From Natrialbaceae archaeon AArc-T1-2 (GTDB lineage Archaea > Halobacteriota > Halobacteria > Halobacteriales > Natrialbaceae), in assembly GCF_030273315.1 (NCBI RefSeq), contig NZ_CP127174.1, positions 2,294,001-2,358,000 on the forward strand: a stretch of 64,000 nt of DNA. The letters run 5' to 3'. Numbering within the stretch: the stretch's first letter is position 1; every line of letters begins with the position of its first letter. The position numbers and the translations under genes are program-made. This document shows positions 1 through 11,010 of the stretch, piece after piece. The notes under the pieces were generated by a model that saw nothing but the letters and a program-made list of their open reading frames with translations, was not told the DNA's origin and searched no databases.

Positions 1-325
1 CGACGTCATGTTCCCGCATAGCTTCGAGGATGTTGTACGTGATCTTCGTGTTGAATTCGAATTGTTTGCGCGGCTGATCTGAATTGACTGCCTTCGATGC
101 GGCCAGGTGGAAGACGACGTCGAATCCCGACGAGAGGACATCCGACACAACAGTTTGATCACGGAGATCACCCCGGACCAGAGTCGCGTCGTCGGAAACC
201 CAGTTCGCCTGTCCAGACGAGCAGTCATCGACGACAGTGACCTCGTTCGATTTGACCAGCCGTTCAACGAGGTGTGAGCCGACGAACCCCGCCCCACCGG
301 TTACAAGTATGCGTTTATGTTTCAT
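1..325 (-). CDS. NAD-dependent epimerase/dehydratase, 3' end cut by window
   Basis: My translation of the minus strand from ATG at 325 gives about 108 residues of an extended short-chain dehydrogenase: MKHKRILVTGGAGFVGSHL (glycine-rich NAD-binding loop), VVDD at the end of the second strand (acidic residue for NAD ribose) and VFHLAA around residue 75. This is the start of the UDP-glucose 4-epimerase/dehydratase family, which interconverts or modifies nucleotide sugars in the cytoplasm. The catalytic YxxxK lies beyond the window edge. It sits divergently from a glycosyltransferase at the start of a glycan locus, so it probably makes a sugar donor for surface polysaccharide or N-glycan. The exact substrate cannot be told. 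Confidence 0.85.
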   Translation of the reverse strand, partial: MKHKRILVTGGAGFVGSHLVERLVKSNEVTVVDDCSSGQANWVSDDATLVRGDLRDQTVVSDVLSSGFDVVFHLAASKAVNSDQPRKQFEFNTKITYNILEAMREHDV

Positions 326-432
326 ACGATCTTTCTCACCACTACGATAGCAAAGCGAACTATTGCGATTGAGAAAACAGTTATTATATCCCCGGAGTCA
401 AATCGGTAACCCAGAGTGGAGAGAACGAAGCC

Positions 433-1608
433 GTGAACGTATTGTACTATCTCGACTGGTTTCCCAAGCTCTCGCAGAGTTTTGTCCTCAACGAGATCCA
501 CTACCTCGTCCAGAATGGACACAACGTCGCCGTATTCTCGCTAAACGAACCCGACACAGACGTCGAACACGACGAGTTGAACGACATTGATATCGAGGTT
601 GTGTACGCTGACGAACCGTCGGTAACGTCCGTTCCCAAGACGCTCTCCCGGAGCATCGTCGACGATCGTGTCTCGTACGAACCGTTCTTTCGCCGTCCGC
701 GGCGACGGTTCGGAACTCGATATCTCACGAAGCAGTGTCTGGACTTCATCGAGACACTTCCGTACGACATCGATCACGTCCACTCGCACTTCGCTCGGTG
801 GAACAAGATTCCTGCCGCACTGGTTGCCGACGCCGGCGGCGCAACCTCGAGTCTTACGACGCACGCGTACGACCTTTACGCCTCGCCGGACGAGGAGGCA
901 TTGAAGTTCACGTGTGACGCGTTCGACTCAGTTTTCACGATCTCTGAATACAACAAACAATTTATTGACGCTGAAATTGATCCAGACGCCACTGTCGAAG
1001 TCGTCCGAATGGGAATTCGAACCGAAAAGTTCCAGCCGACAGAGACGCCGGACGAACCCCGACTCCTGACAATCGCACGGTTCGTGGAAAAGAAGGGAAT
1101 CGAGTACGCGCTCTACGCGGTCGCCGCCGTCGTTGATGACTACCCGGAACTAGACTACCGAATCATCGGCTCGGGTCCTCGAAAGCAGCGATACCAGGAG
1201 ATTATCGCGGAAGAGGGAATTGAGGACAACGTGACATTTCTCGGCTCGGTGAGTGATGACCAGTTAATCGACGAGCTTGACCGGGCAAAGGCATTTCTCC
1301 TCCCTTGTATCGTTGCCAAGGACGGTGACCGAGATGGGATCCCGGTTGTGCTTATGGAAGCAATGGCTATGAAGACACCCCCGATCACGACGAACGTTTC
1401 AGGAATTCCTGAACTAGTTAGTGACTCTGAAAATGGCTTCCTTGTTAATCCGAGAGATACTCATGCTATATCTTCGAAGATTTATACTGTACTACGTGGG
1501 GATGAAGAAATAAATAAAATCAGACGGAAGTCTAGAAAAACTATAGAAGAAACATACGACATCTATACCAAGGAAAAAGATCTTGGAAGATTATTTATGG
1601 CTACTTAA
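433..1608 (+). CDS. Glycosyltransferase family 4 protein
   Basis: The protein has 391 residues and a GTG start. It has the GT-B fold layout: an N-terminal acceptor domain (MNVLYYLDWFPKLSQSFVLNEI; HVHSHFA near 115) and a C-terminal nucleotide-sugar domain starting near 200 (LLTIARFVEKKGIEYAL). The donor-binding stretch DGIPVVLMEAMAMKTPP ends the E-x7-E region of GT4 retaining transferases. It probably transfers a sugar to a lipid-linked glycan on the cytoplasmic face. A TATA-like TTATTATATCC lies near 381-391. Base composition falls from GC-rich at the 5' end to clearly AT-rich in the last 200 bases, while the reading frame and fold continue, so the 3' end may have been exchanged. Donor and acceptor are unknown. 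Confidence 0.88.
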   Translation: MNVLYYLDWFPKLSQSFVLNEIHYLVQNGHNVAVFSLNEPDTDVEHDELNDIDIEVVYADEPSVTSVPKTLSRSIVDDRVSYEPFFRRPRRRFGTRYLTKQCLDFIETLPYDIDHVHSHFARWNKIPAALVADAGGATSSLTTHAYDLYASPDEEALKFTCDAFDSVFTISEYNKQFIDAEIDPDATVEVVRMGIRTEKFQPTETPDEPRLLTIARFVEKKGIEYALYAVAAVVDDYPELDYRIIGSGPRKQRYQEIIAEEGIEDNVTFLGSVSDDQLIDELDRAKAFLLPCIVAKDGDRDGIPVVLMEAMAMKTPPITTNVSGIPELVSDSENGFLVNPRDTHAISSKIYTVLRGDEEINKIRRKSRKTIEETYDIYTKEKDLGRLFMAT

Positions 1609-1651
1609 CTGACGCCAACAATCATGTAAAACACATAGTTTCGAATTATAA

Positions 1652-2905
1652 TCACGTCAATTCATTCAAGTACGAAGTGTTCTCTTTGGAAAGATTTGCA
1701 AGTTCCTTTGATCGGGGGCCCACATGATTGAAATCCGATTTGTCACAAATGTATTTCTCTGAAAGATCGATGATCGAATCAAGGTCATCTTTAATTTTGA
1801 ATGGGTCGAATATGTCTATATCTAGGTTTAATAATTCCAAAACACCTTCTATCTTATGCGTATTTGCACGGAACGGTATTATCGGAACTCCCCCTTTGGC
1901 TGCGAATATAGTTGGGTGATATCTTCCACCGATATACACAGAAGCGTTCGACACGAGCGAAATTGTATGTGGGATTGATGTATTCAAACCAACTATATCT
2001 ATACCTAACTGTTCCGCAACCGGTGTCAGTAACTCTTCGTCTGACTCTGCAGATACCACTAATAGGATATTTGGAACGACTTTCTGAAGCCGTTTACACA
2101 GATGAATGTATGATTCAACATCATATCTGGATTTAGTTGGATATATAGAGTTGCCAGCTACACATATGTACTGGCGTCTAGGATCAAAGCACTGGCTTGA
2201 ATATGGTCGAATATTCACTTTGTCTGATTGTATGTCTTCATATAATTCCTCTTCACCAACTTGTTTATCATAATAGAAACCTGGATCAGCACTGACTCGA
2301 TAGTTAGAACATAGTTCTTTGTGTTTTTTAGCCGACACTGGCTCTCTAAACACAACGCCATCCAACATCGGATAGATATTCTCGACCATATGATAAAGAT
2401 CATTATCAGTGATATCTAGTGTATGGTTTGTCATAATACATTTGGTATTCAAATACTTTTTTGCTAAATAAGCAATAAAGAATAGCCCCCTAGTACATCG
2501 GTCATGGCTGGAATATGTCAATCCTTCTCCATTTATGACGACAACATCTGCTGATCGAATATTTTCTACTTCTTTTTGGAATAAATCCTCTTCAATTACC
2601 ATATTTGCATATTTGCCGAACTTTTCATAGGACCGAGGTATAATATCACCGATTGTATTAAAAGATCGATAAGCAGATACTGGATCTCGGTTCATTAAAT
2701 TAGCGATTGTGTCAATAATTTGGCGTCCTGAATATCTTATTGTTCGATTATTAATCCTCTTGTTAGGAATACGTAAACTCCTTTTATATGATGTTTCTAC
2801 TATATTCCCACCTTCTTTCCTAATAAGTGTTCGGAGAGCCCTAGTGGTTGCTTGTGATCCCCAATTCAGCCCACTAGAAGTGTCGTTCACAAAGTATATA
2901 TCCAT
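1652..2905 (-). CDS. Polysaccharide pyruvyl transferase family protein
   Basis: The protein has 417 residues. MDIYFVNDTSSGLNWGSQATTRAL at the start, VVVINGEGLTYSS near 118 and the late VYIGGRYHPTIFAAKGGVPIIPF segment match the polysaccharide pyruvyl transferase family, which puts ketal-linked pyruvate on exopolysaccharide sugars or otherwise modifies glycans. No signal peptide or membrane segment is seen, so it is cytoplasmic. The whole gene is strikingly AT-rich compared with most of the window, with codons such as ATA, TTA and AGA that are rare in its neighbours. I infer recent transfer from a lower-GC source. It is transcribed towards the glycosyltransferase at 433. Family is fairly sure; the specific reaction is not. 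Confidence 0.85.
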   Translation of the reverse strand: MDIYFVNDTSSGLNWGSQATTRALRTLIRKEGGNIVETSYKRSLRIPNKRINNRTIRYSGRQIIDTIANLMNRDPVSAYRSFNTIGDIIPRSYEKFGKYANMVIEEDLFQKEVENIRSADVVVINGEGLTYSSHDRCTRGLFFIAYLAKKYLNTKCIMTNHTLDITDNDLYHMVENIYPMLDGVVFREPVSAKKHKELCSNYRVSADPGFYYDKQVGEEELYEDIQSDKVNIRPYSSQCFDPRRQYICVAGNSIYPTKSRYDVESYIHLCKRLQKVVPNILLVVSAESDEELLTPVAEQLGIDIVGLNTSIPHTISLVSNASVYIGGRYHPTIFAAKGGVPIIPFRANTHKIEGVLELLNLDIDIFDPFKIKDDLDSIIDLSEKYICDKSDFNHVGPRSKELANLSKENTSYLNELT

Positions 2906-2963
2906 GGTTGTACCTGTATCTTTCTGTTACGGAAAATTGTTTCGGTAAATTCGGAATGCGAAT

Positions 2964-4097
2964 TCATAACCTGATATTGTAATCGGAAAGATTAACAACA
3001 TACGTAATCGCTGCGGCCTGGAAAACAGAGTTCGTGGTTCCAGCCGATAGAAGGTTCGACATCACATCAAACTTCTCCTGAAAGTCTCGCTCAAGCCACT
3101 GCTGTACTCGCTTAGTATCCGCATCACATAAAACCTGAAGCGCAAGGGCAATGTCTATTCCTGGTGTCATAGCACCATAATGCCCATCGTACTCGGCTAC
3201 CTGTGAAGTAGTATCTGTTGCACAGATTTCTTCAATGGGTAGTTCTGTATCTAGATCCGACCATAATCCCATCACAGCCAGATTCAACTTGAGTTGTGCT
3301 AACCCGAGTAGATTCACGGGATGATAGCCAATTTCCTTTTGCTTTCTACTAGGTGAGTATGAATAGAGCCGGGAGAGTACATCATTAGCCAATAAACGCC
3401 AGTGACGCGGTTCCTGAAGCACTGTTCGAACTATTCGACCGAATGGGGGTCGAATATAATGCTTGATAATTCCATCATCATGGAGACATATGTTGGACTC
3501 AAGTTGAGCAGTAAACTTAGTGACCGTGTTTTCGACCTCTTCATGCTCCTCCGCAAGGTGAGATGCCGCACCAGCAAACAGAATCTGATGGTTTAACGTT
3601 CGATCGAATGATAACACCGAACCGTCGATTTCGACCCGTTCCCAGAGGCCGAGGCCCTCGTCGAAAGGGTGGAGCAAAACCACGTCTTTTGCCGTCTCGA
3701 GTAATTCCGGCCGGCCGAGTGTCGGTCCAGCGTGCGCTAATCCACGGACTGGAGCTGCCTGTCCGACCAAGCCATCGCAGTGATCTTTTCCCTCGACCGT
3801 TCTCGAGTGAAACGTATACCCATACGGCCGTGCTTCGTCGCTGAGCAAATAGTCGGCCGCGTCGTTGGCCGCCTCGGCGAACACCTCGTCGCCGGTGATC
3901 TCGTACACCTTCGACAGCGTCGTCAGCCAGTGTGAGGTCGTCCGCACGGGCGTCTCCGGCTCGTCGTAGACCCCGTTTCGCCCCGGTGGAAACGACCCGT
4001 CCTCGCGCTGGAGCTCGAGCGCCGCCCGCGCGCTCCGTTCCAGCAGCTCGTGGAGCGTGATCGTCTCCCCCTCCGTATCCGAATCGGGCTCTGACAT
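2964..4097 (-). CDS. Hypothetical glycan-locus protein, all-alpha toroid-like
   Basis: The protein has 377 residues from MSEPDSDTEGETITLHELLE. Earlier in-frame starts would run into the neighbouring ParB-like pseudogene and encode low-quality sequence. Repeated amphipathic helices with aromatic and glycine turns (QREDGSFPPGRNGVYDEPE; TTSHWLTTLSKVYEITGDE; GLVGQAAPVRGLAHAG; YDGHYGAMTPGIDIALALQV) resemble the alpha/alpha-toroid folds of glycoside-active enzymes and uronyl epimerases, but no catalytic motif is certain. The 5' half is GC-rich. The 3' half, below about 3620, is AT-rich like the next gene, so the composition boundary lies inside the reading frame. Context suggests a role in glycan processing; this is inference. 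Confidence 0.7.
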   Translation of the reverse strand: MSEPDSDTEGETITLHELLERSARAALELQREDGSFPPGRNGVYDEPETPVRTTSHWLTTLSKVYEITGDEVFAEAANDAADYLLSDEARPYGYTFHSRTVEGKDHCDGLVGQAAPVRGLAHAGPTLGRPELLETAKDVVLLHPFDEGLGLWERVEIDGSVLSFDRTLNHQILFAGAASHLAEEHEEVENTVTKFTAQLESNICLHDDGIIKHYIRPPFGRIVRTVLQEPRHWRLLANDVLSRLYSYSPSRKQKEIGYHPVNLLGLAQLKLNLAVMGLWSDLDTELPIEEICATDTTSQVAEYDGHYGAMTPGIDIALALQVLCDADTKRVQQWLERDFQEKFDVMSNLLSAGTTNSVFQAAAITYVVNLSDYNIRL

Positions 4098-4189
4098 CCG
4101 TCGTGGTAATAGACTCGAGGCGACGCCGATATAAGTTCCTCGGGACCGACTTTGAGGCCATCCCTGAGCCCAGACCCCGCGGCCTCGAG

Positions 4190-4948
4190 TCACCCGCGGT
4201 CGACGTACTCCCGGTGACGAACGACGACCAGCACGGGAATCTCCTTGACGCCACACACCTTGGCGATGAACAGCCGGTGTTGTCCGTCGACCAGCAGGGG
4301 TTCGCCGTCACGTCCTCGATCGATCATCACCTCGTCGAGTGTGTACTTGTACGTCCGCGGGTAGTATCCCATTGGGTCGTTCGGTTGTGAATCGAAGACC
4401 TCTCGTTTGCTCTTGTATCCGTCTGTTTCGATTCGCTCGCACAACTCGTCGAGCTGTTCGCAACGCTCCCAGAGGTCCTCTTCGCTTCGAACGACCGCCC
4501 GCCACGTCTCGTCGTGTCCATCTTGGCGGAGTCGCTCGAGTGATTTCTCGACGTACTCCGTCTCTTTCCACGGAACGTCGCGCTCGAAGTGGCCTTCGAT
4601 CGCCTGGTAAAGCAGTTCGTCGGCAATACGGTGTTCTGGTGACTTCGACTCGAGATCTCAGTCTCCGCCGACGATCCGGCCGACATCCTTCCATCGACTG
4701 CGGTTGGTTCGTTCGTGGCGAGCGGATCGATATCGAATGTCGGCCGGATCTACGTACTCGATCTCGTAGGGTTCCGGAACCGTCTCGTATCGGTGCCCAT
4801 TGACGAACGAGCGGATTCGTAGCCACGCACGGGAGCCGAACACCCGTTCCGAACACTGATACGAGATCTGGTCCGCGGCTCTGAACAGTAGTTCTCGCGG
4901 GCCGCGTTCGGAATACACTTCTTTGGCGCGTTCGAACGGACTGGTCAC
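4190..4948 (-). pseudogene. ParB-like-motif family protein, broken by one in-frame TGA
   Basis: Starting at 4948, the frame gives MTSPFERAKEVYSERGPREL and runs to VGRIVGGD, then meets TGA at 4660-4658. It then continues in the same frame without further stops to LLVDGQHRLFIAKVCGVKEIPV and a stop at 4190. The two intact relatives at 5034 and 7214 have tryptophan (TGG) exactly after the matching GGD or DGE, so one base change, TGG to TGA, explains the break. The C-terminus is also shorter than in the relatives, ending soon after the RH pair. Either half could still be translated (an ATG at 4444 opens the second), but I read it as a very recent pseudogene or a sequencing error. Confidence 0.75.
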
Positions 4949-5033
4949 ACGATAGTAGAGTCACGGATAGGAGTTCAAATCTGTACTGATTCCGATTTGT
5001 GAACGAACGGAGGCGTCAGCGACGATTACGACG

Positions 5034-5888
5034 ATGAAAGGACTCACTCGCAGGGCACGACGGGTTTACCGCGAGGAAGGGCTTGTTCCGACAGTCGAGA
5101 AAACGGCTCGTTTCGTTCCCCGATATGCTCGACACGTACTCGGGGAGAACGGAATGTACGGAAGCCCACGATATCGATGGCTGCTGATTTGGTGGAACTC
5201 CCGTCCCTACTCCGCCGTCGCCGACCCCTTCAAAATCGTCCGCGTCGATCCGACCGAGATCACCCACGTCACCGGTCGAGGACCGAACCCGGGCCGATTC
5301 CAGTGGCAGGATCTCGGAAACGTCCAGGGAGGTGACTGGGACCAAAGCGACGAACGCGTCGAAGACCTGCCTGTCGTCCAGGCACTCCGGCAGCGCTTCG
5401 AGGACGGTACGGACTGGGAGGACATCGAGTTCATCCAGCACGTCCTCGAGCAAGCCGAGCGCGGACACGTCATCTGGCGAGGCTGTGCGAACGAGGACGA
5501 CGTGTGGGAGGCGTGTGCTCGAGTCGACCGCCTCTACGAGCGCATCCGAGACCAGGGATACCGAAGCAAGCAGGAACTCGTCCAGCAGGAGGGACTGTCC
5601 CCAGACAAGTACGCCGATGGCGACCGGTTCAACTGCTACGACGAGGTCGTCGTCGACGTCGGTCGCGACGGTCAGTTTCTCTTCGTCGACGGACGGCACC
5701 GGCTCGCGATCGCGAAGATTCTCGAGCTCGAGGAGATACCAGTTCGAATCTCGGCTCGACACGAGCAGTGGCAGCAAATACGGGAAACAGTCGCCGAAAC
5801 GCCGCGGTCCGAACTCTCTGGAGAGGTCGAACAGCATCTCGACCATCCCGACTTGGAAAATCTTCTCGAGAGAGAGTGTTCCAGCTGA
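5034..5888 (+). CDS. Hypothetical protein with ParB/Srx-like C-terminal motif
   Basis: The protein has 284 residues. The N-terminal 60 residues are basic and aromatic. A PFKIVRVDPTEI segment follows near 65, then GGDWDQ near 100, and the C-terminal third carries VVVDVGRDGQFLFVDGRHRL followed by AIAKILELEEIPVRISARH. The G-x-HRL-x-IAK pattern is the signature of ParB N-terminal/sulfiredoxin-like domains, which bind or hydrolyse nucleotides. Two relatives flank it (4190 pseudogene, 7214). All three lie among glycosyltransferase, pyruvyltransferase and flippase genes, so a role in glycan assembly or its control is plausible but unproven. The divergent neighbour upstream is the broken copy. I do not know a characterised member. 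Confidence 0.75.
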   Translation: MKGLTRRARRVYREEGLVPTVEKTARFVPRYARHVLGENGMYGSPRYRWLLIWWNSRPYSAVADPFKIVRVDPTEITHVTGRGPNPGRFQWQDLGNVQGGDWDQSDERVEDLPVVQALRQRFEDGTDWEDIEFIQHVLEQAERGHVIWRGCANEDDVWEACARVDRLYERIRDQGYRSKQELVQQEGLSPDKYADGDRFNCYDEVVVDVGRDGQFLFVDGRHRLAIAKILELEEIPVRISARHEQWQQIRETVAETPRSELSGEVEQHLDHPDLENLLERECSS

Positions 5889-5897
5889 CGACGTATA

Positions 5898-7058
5898 TCA
5901 CGTCTCGAGTACGTTCTCGAGCGTTCGCTCGAGATGACCGATGTCGACGACGATATCGGTCGAGTCGGGCTGGCACTGAATCGGTTGGTAGTCGACACCC
6001 ACGGTGTCGGCCAGCCGTTCGTACGGGTCTTTGACCTTTGACCCGAACAGTTCGAACACGGTTGCGTCGTCACAGTAGATCAGGTCGGTCAGTCCGGCCC
6101 CATGTGCACCGACGACGGCGTCGGCCTCGTGGAACAGTTGGACGTTCTGTGCGACGCTCTGGTTCTCGAGGACGTAAGGCTCGAAGTCATACCGTGAAAG
6201 TGCGTCAACAACCTCCTGCTCGTTGACGACCTGCCGTTCGATCGCGTTCGAACGGGAAATGTAGACGTTACTCCCGGTGTCGATCGAGTCCGTATCCGGA
6301 TCGGCGTTCTCGAGAATCGTTTCACGGATCCAGCGGTAGTCCGCCGTGGTCTGTTCCGGAAAGGACGGCACGATGACGTTCGACCCTCGGTATACCGTAC
6401 TCGTCGCCCGTTCGATTTTCCGTTCCGGGACTCCGAGCAGCTCGAGCGTTTCGTCGACGTAGGCTGGGGCGTCCGACCAGACGATATACGTTACTTCGTC
6501 GTTCGTCTGTTCCTCGTATGCTCGGGCGTATCGAATCCGCGGCAGTGTCTCTATCGTCCAGTGATAGTAATTGATATAGCGGTAGGAAAGTGGACAGATC
6601 GTATCCAGCGTTCTCGCTCGCTCCTCGAGTGCATCCGTGTTCCCGGTGACGACGTTTCTGGCCAGGTCGACACCATCGACGAATCCGTGTCGGACGAGTG
6701 ATTTGATCACGCCGTTTTTGTCATCGTCAGCAGGCCCGACTGACTCGTCGACAGGATTCCCCGCGTTGGTCAACACAAGTCCAGTTGTCGGAAAAACGTA
6801 TCCCTGATTGATGTTCGCAGCAAAGGGGGTCGACACAGTGTTCGCCCCATCGAGATGAGCCACAACGCTTGCCCGCTCGAGTAATTCCTGACGGGAGACT
6901 GACCGGAGATCCCCCTGTTTGAATAGACGACGAAACACGGGTGGAGCAAGGACGCTTCTCGATACCAGTTCGAACGACGCTTTGACAGCACTAGCACCTC
7001 CTTCTTGATCTATTTTCCGCCTAAATTTCCGATACGAAAAGTCTCTCGGGGCCCACAT
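5898..7058 (-). CDS. Glycosyltransferase family 61 (DUF563-type) protein
   Basis: The protein has 386 residues. The central and C-terminal parts carry YRYINYYHWTIETLPRIRYA (the family's typical H-W before the first helix), VIVPSFPEQ, SNVYISRSNAIERQV and ADAVVGAHGAGLTDLIYCDD, the GAHGAGLTN-like motif of GT61/capsular polysaccharide transferases. The N-terminal 90 residues are basic and have no signal peptide. It likely adds a sugar to a cytoplasmic glycan precursor. A TACTTAAGAG box on the minus strand (7083-7092) lies about 25-35 bases ahead of the ATG at 7058, suggesting a nearly leaderless message. It converges with the ParB-like gene at 5034, with only 9 bases between them. Confidence 0.85.
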   Translation of the reverse strand: MWAPRDFSYRKFRRKIDQEGGASAVKASFELVSRSVLAPPVFRRLFKQGDLRSVSRQELLERASVVAHLDGANTVSTPFAANINQGYVFPTTGLVLTNAGNPVDESVGPADDDKNGVIKSLVRHGFVDGVDLARNVVTGNTDALEERARTLDTICPLSYRYINYYHWTIETLPRIRYARAYEEQTNDEVTYIVWSDAPAYVDETLELLGVPERKIERATSTVYRGSNVIVPSFPEQTTADYRWIRETILENADPDTDSIDTGSNVYISRSNAIERQVVNEQEVVDALSRYDFEPYVLENQSVAQNVQLFHEADAVVGAHGAGLTDLIYCDDATVFELFGSKVKDPYERLADTVGVDYQPIQCQPDSTDIVVDIGHLERTLENVLET

Positions 7059-7213
7059 CTAGTCGAGACTTCCGTTCGTGGCTCTTAAGTACACAGGTTT
7101 CTCAACAGTAGCTGATCCAAAATATGATCGAAACGTGTTTTACCGTACAAAATTCATAAAGTATCATTACCAGAGTTCCACGTAAGTCAATGTGAGAAGT
7201 GGTGGTGAATCAC

Positions 7214-8032
7214 ATGAAGAGAAATTCTGGGTTTCTATGTCTGGCAAAGCGTTCGTTGACGACGCTCCGCAATCAGGGCATAGATCGGCTTCTTTTATAC
7301 GGAATACGGTATCTGAGCTGGAAGTTTCAATTTCATCGTCTTGTTCGATCGTTACCGCATCCAATAGCAACGACGATCTACCTGCTTATAAGAGGGGTAG
7401 CACGCCGCGCTTTTCGGATTCTTAATCTAATTTTCCAACACAAATATACCGATGCTGACCCGTACAAATTGATATTCGTCGATCCATCGGCAATCGAATT
7501 TACAAGTGGTGCTTCGAGACGACGTGGATGGGTTGTTGACGGAGAATGGGATGAAGGTGGAACTCCGTTTATGCACCGGACCTGTCCCAAAGCGATTGAA
7601 CAACGCTTTGTTGAGGGTGTTGAGTGGGGTGAGACAGATCTCTCCGATAAATACGACAGGTCGAAATTTGAAGAACGGACTTCCGAAATCGAACAACTCT
7701 ACAAGCAAATCCGTGATGATGAATACAAGTCACAGCGTCAGTTACTCGACAAGAACTCAGACGTGGCTTGGAGTGGACTCAATGACGCGATGCACCCACT
7801 AGCCAACGAAATAGCCGTCGATATCGGTCGAGATGGAGAACTATTATGGAATATGTGTGGTCAACATCGACTCGCTATTGCAAAGGTCCTCGATATTGAC
7901 CGAATTCCTGTACAAGTCTTCCGTCGACATGCGGACTGGCAGGCAGTACGGGACCGCGCACGCCGAGGTGAGGACATCCCCGAAGAGCTTCGTGATCACC
8001 CGGACTTGACGGACGTTCTCGGGAGTCAGTAG
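7214..8032 (+). CDS. Hypothetical protein with ParB/Srx-like C-terminal motif, third copy
   Basis: The protein has 272 residues from the ATG at 7214; a GTG at 7199 is also possible, but the ATG gives MKRN, matching the start of the 5034 relative. The long N-terminal region is rich in R, L and F, with possible membrane-associated helices (PIATTIYLLIRG near 50). Then come PYKLIFVDPSAIEF, the conserved tryptophan in VDGEWDEGG, and the motif IAVDIGRDGELLWNMCGQHR followed by LAIAKVLDIDRIPVQVFRRH and a DHPDLTDVLG tail also seen in the 5034 protein (DHPDLENLLE). GC content is visibly lower than in neighbours, so this copy may have a different history. Function is unknown; it sits just upstream of the flippase. 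Confidence 0.72.
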   Translation: MKRNSGFLCLAKRSLTTLRNQGIDRLLLYGIRYLSWKFQFHRLVRSLPHPIATTIYLLIRGVARRAFRILNLIFQHKYTDADPYKLIFVDPSAIEFTSGASRRRGWVVDGEWDEGGTPFMHRTCPKAIEQRFVEGVEWGETDLSDKYDRSKFEERTSEIEQLYKQIRDDEYKSQRQLLDKNSDVAWSGLNDAMHPLANEIAVDIGRDGELLWNMCGQHRLAIAKVLDIDRIPVQVFRRHADWQAVRDRARRGEDIPEELRDHPDLTDVLGSQ

Positions 8033-8052
8033 CTCCCTCGGGAGTGATAATA

Positions 8053-8061
8053 CCCTTAACC
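8053..8061 (+). promoter_or_regulatory. Candidate TATA/BRE box for the flippase gene
   Basis: CCCTTAACC lies 29-37 bases before the ATG at 8090, the spacing expected for a leaderless or very short-leader haloarchaeal message. Just before it, CTCCCTCGGGAG (8034-8045) can form a small hairpin that may end the upstream gene. Confidence 0.45.
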
Positions 8062-8089
8062 CACCACTCCAAAGCTTCCCAGTATCCGT

Positions 8090-9529
8090 ATGCGCCTCGG
8101 TCAAACCTCCGTCATCTACCTCGTCTCAAAAATCGTTGCCTCCCTTCTTGGGTTTCTTGCCACCATCTACTTCACTCGAACCCTCGGTGAGGAGATCTAC
8201 GGCTTCTACGCGATCACGCTCGCGCTCGTCTCGTGGCTGGGGATCGTCAAGAGCGTTGGCTTCGGGCAGGCGATCGTCAAGCGGATGAGCGAGGACGAGC
8301 AACCCGACGCCTACCTCGCGGCTGGAACGACGGTCAAGGCCGTGCTCACGGGAGTCGTGGCGGTCGGCGTCCTCGTGTTTCGCGAGCAGGTGAACGCCTA
8401 CGTCGGCCAGCCCGTCGCCGAGTTCGTCGTCCTGTTGCTCGTCGTCTCGATTTTCAGCGGCCTGGTCAACTCCGCGCTTAAAGGGAGTCACCGGGTCCAC
8501 GTCTACGCTCCACTGAGCACGGTCAAACAGGGTGCACGAAGCATCGCCATGGTCGCGCTCGTCTTCGTCGGCTGGGAACTGTCCGGGATGCTTCTCGGCC
8601 ACGCCGTCGGGACTGCCGTGATCGCCGCAATCGGTCTCGCTATCGTGCGGCCGACGATTACGATCCCCCGATGGCGACACGTCCGCGAGTTGTTCGACTT
8701 CGCGAAGTTCTCCTGGCTCGGGAGTATGCGCAAGAAAACTTTCAGCGACATGGACATCGTCGTCCTCGGTGTGTTCGTCCCGGCAGGCCTCACCGGGATC
8801 TACGCGGTTGCGTACACGCTCGCGAAGTTCCTCGACATCTTCGGCAGCGCAATCCAGACGACGCTGTTTCCCGAACTAAGCAAGCGATCCGCCGCCGGCG
8901 ACGCCGAGATGGTCCGGACGCTAACGACCGACGCGATCACCTACGCCGGATTGTTCCTGATCCCCGGCATCGTCGGTGCGACGATCCTCGGCGATCGCCT
9001 GATGCTCATTTACGGGGACGGCTTCGAGATCGGCGAGCAGGTGCTTCCCATCCTGCTCGTGGGCATCCTCGCGTACTCGTACAACAAACAGCTGCTCAAC
9101 ACCCTCAACGGGATCGACAGGCCGGATCTCGCTTTCCGGGCGAACGCCATCTTCATCGCCGCGAACCTCGTGCTCAACGTCGCGTTCGTCTACGCCATCG
9201 GCTGGCTCGGTGCCGCGATCGCGACGGCGTTGTCGGCCGGAATCGGGCTCGTCTTCGGCTTCTATTACGCGCGCGAACTCGTGCAGTTCACTGTCCCTTA
9301 CGCCGAAATCGCCCGCCAGTGGCTCGCCGCCGGGTTCATGGGTGCGATCGTCTACGGTGCCCGCGAACTCGGCGAGACCCACTGGATCGCGACCTACAAC
9401 GAGGTCTTCGTTGTGGCCCTGGTCGGTCTCGGGGCCGTAGTCTACTTCCTCGCGTTGCTCGCCATCTCGAGGACGTTCCGAACCACGGTCTCGAGAAATC
9501 TCCCCTTCGACGTGCCCTTCGCGCAGTAG
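8090..9529 (+). CDS. Oligosaccharide flippase family protein (Wzx/AglR-like)
   Basis: The protein has 479 residues and about 14 hydrophobic segments, starting MRLGQTSVIYLVSKIVASLL followed by GFLATIYFTRTLGEEIYGFY. That opening is typical of polysaccharide-export flippases of the MATE-like MOP superfamily. A conserved internal stretch FDFAKFSWLGSMRKKTFSDM begins the second half (near 200). It should move a lipid-linked glycan across the cytoplasmic membrane, as AglR is thought to do for dolichol-linked sugars in haloarchaea. It closes the glycan locus and has its own promoter-like box. Which glycan it moves, N-glycan or exopolysaccharide, is not decidable from sequence. Confidence 0.88.
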   Translation: MRLGQTSVIYLVSKIVASLLGFLATIYFTRTLGEEIYGFYAITLALVSWLGIVKSVGFGQAIVKRMSEDEQPDAYLAAGTTVKAVLTGVVAVGVLVFREQVNAYVGQPVAEFVVLLLVVSIFSGLVNSALKGSHRVHVYAPLSTVKQGARSIAMVALVFVGWELSGMLLGHAVGTAVIAAIGLAIVRPTITIPRWRHVRELFDFAKFSWLGSMRKKTFSDMDIVVLGVFVPAGLTGIYAVAYTLAKFLDIFGSAIQTTLFPELSKRSAAGDAEMVRTLTTDAITYAGLFLIPGIVGATILGDRLMLIYGDGFEIGEQVLPILLVGILAYSYNKQLLNTLNGIDRPDLAFRANAIFIAANLVLNVAFVYAIGWLGAAIATALSAGIGLVFGFYYARELVQFTVPYAEIARQWLAAGFMGAIVYGARELGETHWIATYNEVFVVALVGLGAVVYFLALLAISRTFRTTVSRNLPFDVPFAQ

Positions 9530-9531
9530 GC

Positions 9532-9702
9532 TTACCAGACCTGTGCGGCGGGCGTTCCACAATTGTCACAGACGACGGCGTCGTTTCCGTCGAACATCAT
9601 CTGATTGAGCGAACCGTCCGAACAGAATGCACAGTCACTGTGTTCGAGATACTCGAGAAGTGGTGCACGAGGAACCGTCGGTTCCGGCAGGCAAGCGGTC
9701 AC
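9532..9702 (-). CDS. Small zinc-finger microprotein, 56 residues
   Basis: Reading the minus strand from GTG at 9702 gives an ORF of 56 residues ending CAFCSDGSLNQMMFDGNDAV then VCDNCGTPAAQVW. The two CxxC pairs about 20 residues apart form a classic four-cysteine zinc knuckle. No ATG is available in frame, and GTG is the first plausible start downstream of a TATA-like box at 9732-9738. Haloarchaea carry many such tiny zinc proteins, a few linked to motility or biofilm control. The gene converges with the flippase, leaving only 2 bases between stop codons. Confidence 0.6.
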   Translation of the reverse strand: MTACLPEPTVPRAPLLEYLEHSDCAFCSDGSLNQMMFDGNDAVVCDNCGTPAAQVW

Positions 9703-9825: not shown

Positions 9826-10185
9826 TCACACGTCCGGACTCCCCGAACTGGTAGCGTCTCGTCTTGACTGGTCCGAGCGGCGACTCGAGGCCGTCTCCCC
9901 GTCGAACAGAAGCGGCTCGGACAGCGCTCGAAGCGTCGTCCCGCCACTCAGCTCGTAGCCCGGGCAGAAGTTCGTCAGGAAGCTGCGATAGTACGCCGTC
10001 GTCGACAGCTCGACCCGCTCCGACGAGACCGACTCGAGTCTGACCGTGCGACCGTTCGTTCGATCCTCCCGGCGAAACAGTCTCCGTAGCTCGTCGGCGT
10101 CGGACTCGTAGAGTGCGGCGAGTTCGTCGGGGGCGCTGTAGTGGGCCGCCGTGGGTATGTCGCTCGAGTGGTCGTCGGTGGTCAT
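9826..10185 (-). CDS. Hypothetical acidic protein
   Basis: The protein has 119 residues from MTTDDHSSDIPTAAHYSAPD. An upstream in-frame ATG at 10287 would add a stretch of unconvincing composition. The sequence is helical in the first half (DELAALYESDADELRRLFRR), has a central VELSTTAYYRSFLTNFCPGY, and ends in a serine/arginine-rich tail. I see no domain, signal peptide or membrane segment. It stands between the zinc microprotein and the toxin-antitoxin block, both accessory-type neighbours. I cannot assign a function. Confidence 0.5.
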   Translation of the reverse strand: MTTDDHSSDIPTAAHYSAPDELAALYESDADELRRLFRREDRTNGRTVRLESVSSERVELSTTAYYRSFLTNFCPGYELSGGTTLRALSEPLLFDGETASSRRSDQSRRDATSSGSPDV

Positions 10186-10323
10186 CACGACGGACAGGGT
10201 TCGACGGAACGTCTGGAGACGACAGGTGTCCATGGAAAACCCACCAGTTTCGTCGACGGTCCTCGTCGATCGGTAGTGTGGCTGCACACTAGGCTTTTGG
10301 AGCCGGGGAACCTACCGGTTGAT

Positions 10324-10575
10324 ATGAGTAGCGAACGGATCGACGCCGAAAGTAAAGTTTCAGGAAATCAAGCGAACATACCCGCCCGAATTCGACGTGA
10401 ACTTGGAATCGACGACGGCGACCAACTTCAGTGGCAACTCGAAGATGATGGGAGTCTTCGTGTCCAAGTTGTCCGACAACAAACGGGGACATTCGCCGAT
10501 TTCGATGGCTACGACGGCGAAGAGACGACGGATGTGACTACCGAACACGACGCATGGGGCGTCGACGACACGTGA
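10324..10575 (+). CDS. AbrB/SpoVT-type antitoxin
   Basis: The protein has 83 residues. MSSERIDAESKVSGNQANIP followed by ARIRRELGIDDGDQLQWQLE is the swapped-hairpin AbrB/MazE DNA-binding domain, and an acidic tail (GEETTDVTTEHDAWGVDDT) probably wraps the partner toxin. The stop codon is directly followed by the ATG of a PIN-domain gene, the usual antitoxin-toxin order. Such antitoxins block the toxin and repress their own promoter. The ATG at 10324 was chosen because the AbrB fold begins there; longer in-frame extensions to the left are not AbrB-like. Confidence 0.85.
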   Translation: MSSERIDAESKVSGNQANIPARIRRELGIDDGDQLQWQLEDDGSLRVQVVRQQTGTFADFDGYDGEETTDVTTEHDAWGVDDT

Positions 10576-11010
10576 ATGCCACGCGCACTACTCGATACGT
10601 CCGTTCTCTTTGCAGCAGCATACCGGCGGGACACTGCTCACGATGCTGCGCTCCCAATTCTCCAGGGAGTTGATGATGGATTGCTCCCAGAAGCTGTCGT
10701 CCTCGATTACGTTCTTGCAGAGACACTCAATGGTCTGACGACCCATGCCGGCCATGATGCGTCTGTTGATTTCCTCGATCGGATCGAGGAGAATACACAC
10801 TTCCACATCGAGTCACTCACTGCCGACGCTCTCGCAACTGGAAAGGCCTTGTTCAGACAGCACGAACCGTTCTCGTTCGTCGACGCGTGCATCGTTGCGT
10901 ATATGCAGACCGAAGGGCTCGGCTACCTCTACGCATTTGACGGTGACTTCGATGCGGCCGAGGACGTATACCGGCTCAACACAGCCACAAATCCGTACGA
11001 TCCAGATTGA
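10576..11010 (+). CDS. PIN-domain ribonuclease toxin (VapC-like)
   Basis: The protein has 144 residues. MPRALLDTSVLFAAA carries the first PIN aspartate (D7). AETLNGL near 49 supplies the central glutamate, and SFVDACIVAYMQTEGLGYLY then AFDGDFDA supply the late acidic residues. PIN toxins cut RNA, often tRNA or rRNA, and are held in check by the partner encoded immediately upstream (10324). There are no bases between the two genes, so they are surely co-transcribed. The length is usual for the family and all expected acidic residues are present, so it is probably active. Confidence 0.85.
   Translation: MPRALLDTSVLFAAAYRRDTAHDAALPILQGVDDGLLPEAVVLDYVLAETLNGLTTHAGHDASVDFLDRIEENTHFHIESLTADALATGKALFRQHEPFSFVDACIVAYMQTEGLGYLYAFDGDFDAAEDVYRLNTATNPYDPD

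Follow-up and report, generated by a model that had tools for sequence, protein, structure and literature searches.

Proteins with a predicted ParB/sulfiredoxin-type fold in haloarchaeal glycan loci: candidate glycan kinases

Introduction

The O antigen of Escherichia coli O9a is capped with methylphosphate by WbdD, a methyltransferase-kinase chain terminator, and a chain terminator of this kind is also found in Klebsiella pneumoniae O7. The kinase of WbdD has a fold related to eukaryotic kinases, and the O7 kinase resembles AmiN. Phosphate is also transferred by the ParB/sulfiredoxin (ParB/Srx) fold in SerK, SbnI and sulfiredoxin, and a GERR box is typical of ParB. SerK and SbnI phosphorylate free serine (PMC5120207), and a passage of PMC9641203, citing Verstraete 2018, states that the kinase activity of SbnI requires Glu20 and Asp58. 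Here we describe a protein family with three copies in a glycan locus of Natrialbaceae archaeon AArc-T1-2, within a 64,000-nucleotide stretch of contig NZ_CP127174.1 (positions 2,294,001 to 2,358,000; hereafter the window). Members of the family very probably have a ParB/Srx fold and take part in glycan assembly, as enzymes or as components. That its members are kinases acting on the glycan, a reading reached by analogy with WbdD, is given an even chance.

Family copies in the window and their relatives

Three members of the family were located in the window:

4190-4948, minus strand: copy 1, broken; starts with GTG at 4948, is interrupted by an in-frame TGA at 4658-4660 and ends with the stop codon at 4190-4192
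5034-5888, plus strand: copy 2, 284 aa and intact; its DGRHR box is kinase-like and includes Asp219
7214-8032, plus strand: copy 3, 272 aa and intact; its box is GQHR, with Cys replacing Asp

Copies 2 and 3 were 29% identical over 218 residues (E = 7e-27), and a protein search of the genome aligned copy 1 with copy 2 at 35% identity (E = 3.7e-38) across a single internal TGA. This nonsense codon (4658-4660) stands at the Trp codon of the GGDW motif, a position occupied by Trp in all 77 aligned members. Read through as one protein, copy 1 was 66% identical to an intact relative in another genome (locus L045). The best relatives of copies 2 and 3 were found in loci L039 (84% identity) and L067 (42% identity), respectively. 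Because the closest relative of each copy sits in a different other genome, the three copies are, on these comparisons, old and divergent lineages and not recent duplicates. An orthologue of copy 2 in genome G212 showed 82-84% protein identity and a ratio of nonsynonymous to synonymous substitution rates (dN/dS) of about 0.21, which points to purifying selection on copy 2.

A fourth copy is located outside the window in the same genome (G000:C1:1839801). The family was present in 109 of 292 sampled genomes of the class and in 43 of 77 genera, at up to 8 places per genome, and genomes with several, often divergent, copies were common. An initial annotation of the window, made from the sequence, had reported three relatives, that at 4190 being broken, and the alignments and the genome search bear this out; its remark that a triplicate is unusual is weakened by the frequency of multi-copy genomes. 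Nonsense-broken copies were frequent, with stops in 14 of roughly 150 family places listed across genomes. No consistent pairing of active and inactive copies within one locus was found.

Conserved residues and predicted fold

No model covering the family was found in Pfam or NCBIfam, and the Pfam ParB domain PF02195 matched none of 28 members at E up to 1. The invariant core of the 77 aligned members consisted of G-x-W-D, W128, R211-x-G213, G220-x-[HN]-R223 and R242-H243; an H-P-D motif lies close to the C-terminus. In box II (GxxR), G220 was kept in 75 members and R223 in all 77, and HPD or HPE followed RH in 69. The VDP, GGDW/DGEW, GRDG, GxHRL, IPV and RH motifs listed in the initial annotation were all present and were conserved family-wide.

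The AlphaFold model of copy 2, based on an alignment of 35 sequences, had a mean predicted local distance difference test score (pLDDT) of 86.9 and a predicted template modelling score (pTM) of 0.81. The 284-aa model is made up of a helical N-terminal region and a ParB/Srx domain that contains the insertion. Its leading PDB matches in Foldseek and VIA were nearly all Srx, ParB/Noc, SbnI and SerK. When the family profile was compared with PDB sequences, SbnI ranked first (E 0.06); the sequence-level match to SerK was weak (E 0.15), and ParB-like phage families of PHROG were matched distantly (best E 1.5e-4). In hhalign, D219-G-x-H-R of the family fell on D58-G-V-H-R of SbnI. Because the structure matches were consistent and the sequence matches to SbnI, SerK and ParB-like phage families and the hhalign result point the same way, the predicted structure and the GxxR box support a ParB/sulfiredoxin-type (ParB-CTPase) fold, as the initial annotation had proposed. 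In this model, the first strand would be VDPxxI, box I the helix that precedes GY and box II DGxHR, and residues from about 90 to 150, with GDWD and W128, would form a helical insertion.

By predicted structure and the GxxR box, the family is a member of the ParB/Srx fold superfamily; it is neither a ParB segregation protein nor a sulfiredoxin nor, by model score, SerK: the NCBIfam SerK model gave 11.2 bits, compared with a cut-off of 380. The fold and the GxHR box are shared with sulfiredoxin, but the catalytic-Cys form GCHR occurred in none of the 103 typed members, and a closer kinship with sulfiredoxin was rejected for want of this Cys. With SbnI and SerK the family has in common the core of the predicted fold and the profile-aligned DGxHR phosphate box. 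Asp stands at the position of SbnI Asp58 in 68 of the 103 typed members, or roughly two in three; copies 1 and 2 have it and copy 3 does not. The family differs from SbnI and SerK in having a large insertion, which contains GDWD, and a helical module at the N-terminus, and it is found in glycan loci, whereas SbnI and SerK belong to Cys or siderophore pathways.

Linkage to glycan genes

Gene neighbourhoods were compared between sixty 20-kb regions centred on family members, one of them shortened by a contig end, and 20 control regions from the same genomes. Neighbours were scored with profiles of neighbour clusters, and the clusters were identified by Pfam. Any glycosyltransferase (GT) or flippase gene was present within 10 kb in 48 of the 60 regions, compared with 6 of the 20 controls (Fisher p = 8e-5), at a median distance of 1.4 kb. 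GT4 genes were found in 34/60 regions and 2/20 controls, and flippase genes in 34/60 and 4/20, respectively. In a second set of 40 regions, the proportion was 27/40 versus 6/20 controls (Fisher p = 0.012); the regions are not phylogenetically independent, and some of the second set came from genomes already used. Linkage was equal between copies with and without the Asp of the box (p = 1.0). The glycan-gene linkage holds in haloarchaea and bacteria alike. The repeated linkage with glycosyltransferases for which the initial annotation had suggested a survey was therefore observed, and homologues were neither found mostly away from glycan genes nor matched confidently to a family with a known unrelated role.

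A recurrent gene order was seen in Haloferacaceae, in which DUF1616, Gfo/Idh/MocA and the family member are followed by an epimerase and a flippase on the opposite strand; the DUF1616-Gfo/Idh/MocA-family order is also annotated on a Halobaculum plasmid. The order DUF1616, YdjM-like, Gfo/Idh/MocA, family member is conserved in L044, L046-L049, L056, L070, L071 and L168, all of Haloferacaceae.

Fusion and adjacency to a WbdD-like methyltransferase

Proteins in which the family domain is followed by an S-adenosylmethionine (SAM) methyltransferase domain were found in four loci:

L102: Nealsonbacteria metagenome-assembled genome
L125: Nevskiales metagenome-assembled genome
L163: proteobacterium
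L128: IMG/VR contig

These loci adjoin GT4, GT25, flippase, sulfotransferase or Stealth genes, and each of the four has a GT or flippase neighbour. The box is also kept in longer proteins of L126 and L127, with a weak methyltransferase match in L127. Bacterial relatives are rare: the long fused form occurred in 2 of 398 sampled proteobacterial genomes, one being the seed genome itself, and only in the seed genome among 287 genomes sampled from the phylum of L102. Single-sequence scans (P0001) of viral contigs and genome contigs gave zero matches. The diverse alignment A1 was too divergent as a scan query, and the narrower alignment A2 was used successfully. No relatives were found in annotated phages.

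The hypothesis of a WbdD-like kinase-methyltransferase preceded the structural test. The L102 fusion was modelled with a pLDDT of 84, and five WbdD entries took Foldseek ranks 1 to 5 for its methyltransferase half (E 1.4e-8; next entry, 3.7e-7). In VIA, methyltransferase matches filled the table for this model, and the ParB/Srx half had no listed match. When a profile of the four fused methyltransferase domains was searched against all PDB sequences, WbdD was the top match (E 1.6e-6); LYQPL aligned with WbdD Y16 and FHH with WbdD H132-H133. Mutation of Y16, H132, H133 or R203 in WbdD abolishes phosphate methylation, and the authors of that work assigned the preference for phosphate to R203, H132 and H133; as they note, the FHH pair by itself also occurs outside WbdD (PMC3482155). 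R440 of L102, located in the last hairpin (GR[KP]), tentatively corresponds to WbdD R203, provided that the VIA alignment has no gap near its end.

Locus L060, from a haloarchaeon, encodes a methyltransferase as a separate protein (8907-9593), and two bases lie between the end of its gene and the ATG of the family member at 9599. Searched as a single query, this methyltransferase matched WbdD first (E 2.1e-6), with YHH aligned with H132-H133. Two further methyltransferases, in family loci but not directly adjacent, had other enzymes as their first matches. A methyltransferase as a general haloarchaeal neighbour was rejected, since only that of L060 is adjacent and those of L043 and L192 lie further away. 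From the fusions and the adjacency in L060, a WbdD-like methyltransferase appears to be joined to the family in two ways, by fusion and by an apparent operon.

The bacterial relatives thus resemble WbdD and the O7 system in that a glycan-locus protein is fused to a WbdD-like methyltransferase, in which Y16, H132, H133 and probably R203 are aligned. They differ in carrying an N-terminal ParB/Srx domain instead of a kinase of the WbdD or AmiN-like kind. The window proteins have no methyltransferase domain, and the separate protein of L060 has matches for the two His. WbdD-type terminators go with a coiled coil that acts as chain-length ruler and with export by an ABC transporter; the window locus has a Wzx-type flippase.

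A survey of the ParB-CTPase fold published in 2025 (PMC12704722) likewise deals, in its main-text passages, with this fold and its SAM methyltransferase fusions, some of which bound ATP in vitro. The domain analyses in these passages rest on PF02195, which does not match the window family. A glycan role is not described in them ('polysaccharide' does not occur and 'glyco' occurs once). Among open-access papers, no literature linking a ParB/Srx domain to glycan phosphorylation was found.

Proposed function and alternatives

A phosphate methyltransferase needs a phosphorylated substrate, which in WbdD is made by the other domain. By analogy with that domain, the ParB/Srx domain of the fusions would be the kinase. 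On the best reading, the family would play the part that the kinase half plays in WbdD. It is not itself a WbdD, because the kinase fold differs and the window proteins lack a methyltransferase. The GxHR box would bind a nucleoside triphosphate (NTP) or diphosphate, and the inserted helical lobe, with GDWD and W128, would shape the acceptor site. Phosphate would then be transferred to a hydroxyl of the glycan, probably before the glycan leaves its lipid carrier, at the inner face of the membrane. In the bacterial relatives, the fused WbdD-like domain would methylate this phosphate, producing a cap or decoration of methylphosphate. The methyltransferase is missing from most haloarchaea and from the window locus, where the product would be a plain phosphate. 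The several divergent copies per genome may serve different acceptors. The chemistry, acceptor, nucleotide and product are all inferred. On a broader and somewhat less probable proposal, to which we give slightly below an even chance, the family would be a glycan (saccharide) kinase of a fold class not described before. It would phosphorylate surface glycans in haloarchaea; in bacteria, and in one haloarchaeon or more, it would build methylphosphate caps together with a fused or operonic WbdD-like methyltransferase. It would be the third independent origin of such a kinase, beside those of WbdD and K. pneumoniae O7.

Several observations weigh against a glycan kinase. The PDB fold matches of copy 2 were individually weak (Foldseek E 0.07 and up; VIA Z at most 5.5). 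The catalytic Glu of SerK and SbnI (E30/E20) had no conserved counterpart at the aligned position, about residue 77, which is variable and where the insertion makes the alignment unsure; D103 of GDWD is a candidate substitute. About one member in three, copy 3 included, lacks the Asp of the box, which suggests altered chemistry or non-catalytic copies. The methyltransferase fold alone is not decisive for identity with WbdD, because VIA placed WbdD second for the L102 model, level with many methyltransferases. In addition, single fused methyltransferase domains searched alone failed to reach WbdD, and among the 100 haloarchaeal loci a WbdD-like methyltransferase was directly adjacent only in L060. 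The ATP-binding fusions in the passages of PMC12704722 may belong to a different family. About a quarter of all 100 loci had no GT or flippase link, an example being a hydrogenase-maturation region on a Natrarchaeobaculum plasmid.

The missing Asp also speaks for an NTP-dependent switch or scaffold, in which a nucleotide-bound domain would control or hold glycosyltransferases without transferring phosphate to the glycan. The same fold acts as a switch in ParB/Noc, with varied NTP binding according to passages of PMC12704722, and the N-terminal helical module shared with GT61s, a methyltransferase and an ATP-grasp protein would be expected of co-localised complexes. However, no helix-turn-helix DNA-binding or C-terminal dimerisation domain was matched by Pfam in family members, the box is GxHR as in Srx and SerK and not GERR, and a fused phosphate-type methyltransferase points to a prior chemical step; we judge a switch or scaffold unlikely. 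The lack of a DNA-binding domain and the WbdD-like fusion likewise speak against a DNA-binding or regulatory ParB relative governing variation of the glycan locus, and no ParB model was matched in Pfam or NCBIfam. Such a regulator would fit the distant ParB-like PHROG matches and the mosaic, fast-changing locus, but is highly improbable. If the substrate were instead a small precursor that feeds glycan assembly (free serine, glycerol, a sugar or the polyprenol carrier), a kinase role would agree with the activity of the nearest characterised enzymes, SerK and SbnI, on free serine and with the weak matches to both. We consider this reading quite unlikely, since divergent copies per locus and a patchy presence across genomes fit glycan decoration better, and monosaccharide phosphates are not accepted by the WbdD methyltransferase (PMC3482155). 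Among the roles guessed in the initial annotation, that of a phosphate-handling enzyme gained support from the fused WbdD-like phosphate methyltransferase, whereas no specific support was found for a nucleotide-sugar enzyme or a regulator.

If the family does phosphorylate glycans, a nucleotide-binding fold with known roles in serine metabolism, redox repair and chromosome segregation would also have become a glycan-modifying kinase, present in about a third of the sampled haloarchaeal genomes. Phosphate, and sometimes methylphosphate, would be predicted on archaeal surface glycans, and many 'hypothetical proteins' of glycan loci would gain a name and an assay. The kinase-plus-methyltransferase cap would then have arisen repeatedly, by the joining of unrelated kinases to a related methyltransferase.

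Surrounding glycan locus

The following genes surround the family copies in the window:

433-1608, plus strand: GT4 glycosyltransferase (Pfam)
1652-2905, minus strand: polysaccharide pyruvyltransferase (Pfam)
2964-4100, minus strand: 377-aa protein with a weak GH88-like match; DNA match to the gene adjoining the copy 1 relative in L045
5898-7058, minus strand: GT61 glycosyltransferase between copies 2 and 3 (Pfam)
8090-9529, plus strand: Wzx-type flippase (Polysacc_synt; Pfam)

Pfam agreed with the initial annotation that the copies are interleaved with pyruvyltransferase, GT61 and flippase genes, and GT4 is also present. When positions 1-9500 of the window were compared with L039, the allelic locus in another genome, flanking pieces were 86-96% identical. 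The DNA identity was 96% for GT4, 90% for the stretch 2953-4338 and 67% for the flippase gene, and the pyruvyltransferase, GT61 and copy 3 genes had no DNA match in L039. On this comparison, the window glycan locus is a mosaic. Adjacent genes for a MazE/PrlF-like antitoxin and a PIN-domain protein, a likely toxin-antitoxin pair, lie by the glycan locus at 10141-11010.

Family members, including that at 5034 in the window, begin with the N-terminal helical module, which spans some 35 residues (RxARxIYxEEG...L...F). In haloarchaeal glycan loci the same module was found on GT61s, a nitroreductase, a methyltransferase and an ATP-grasp protein of sugar transfer, and it may serve all of them as an element for targeting to the membrane or to a complex. 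Its carriers are as follows:

L060:8907-9593
L083:10494-11795
L089:4933-6270
L064:13466-14815
L144:11634-12758
L060:12686-13837
window, 5034
window, 5898-7058 (recognised by eye)

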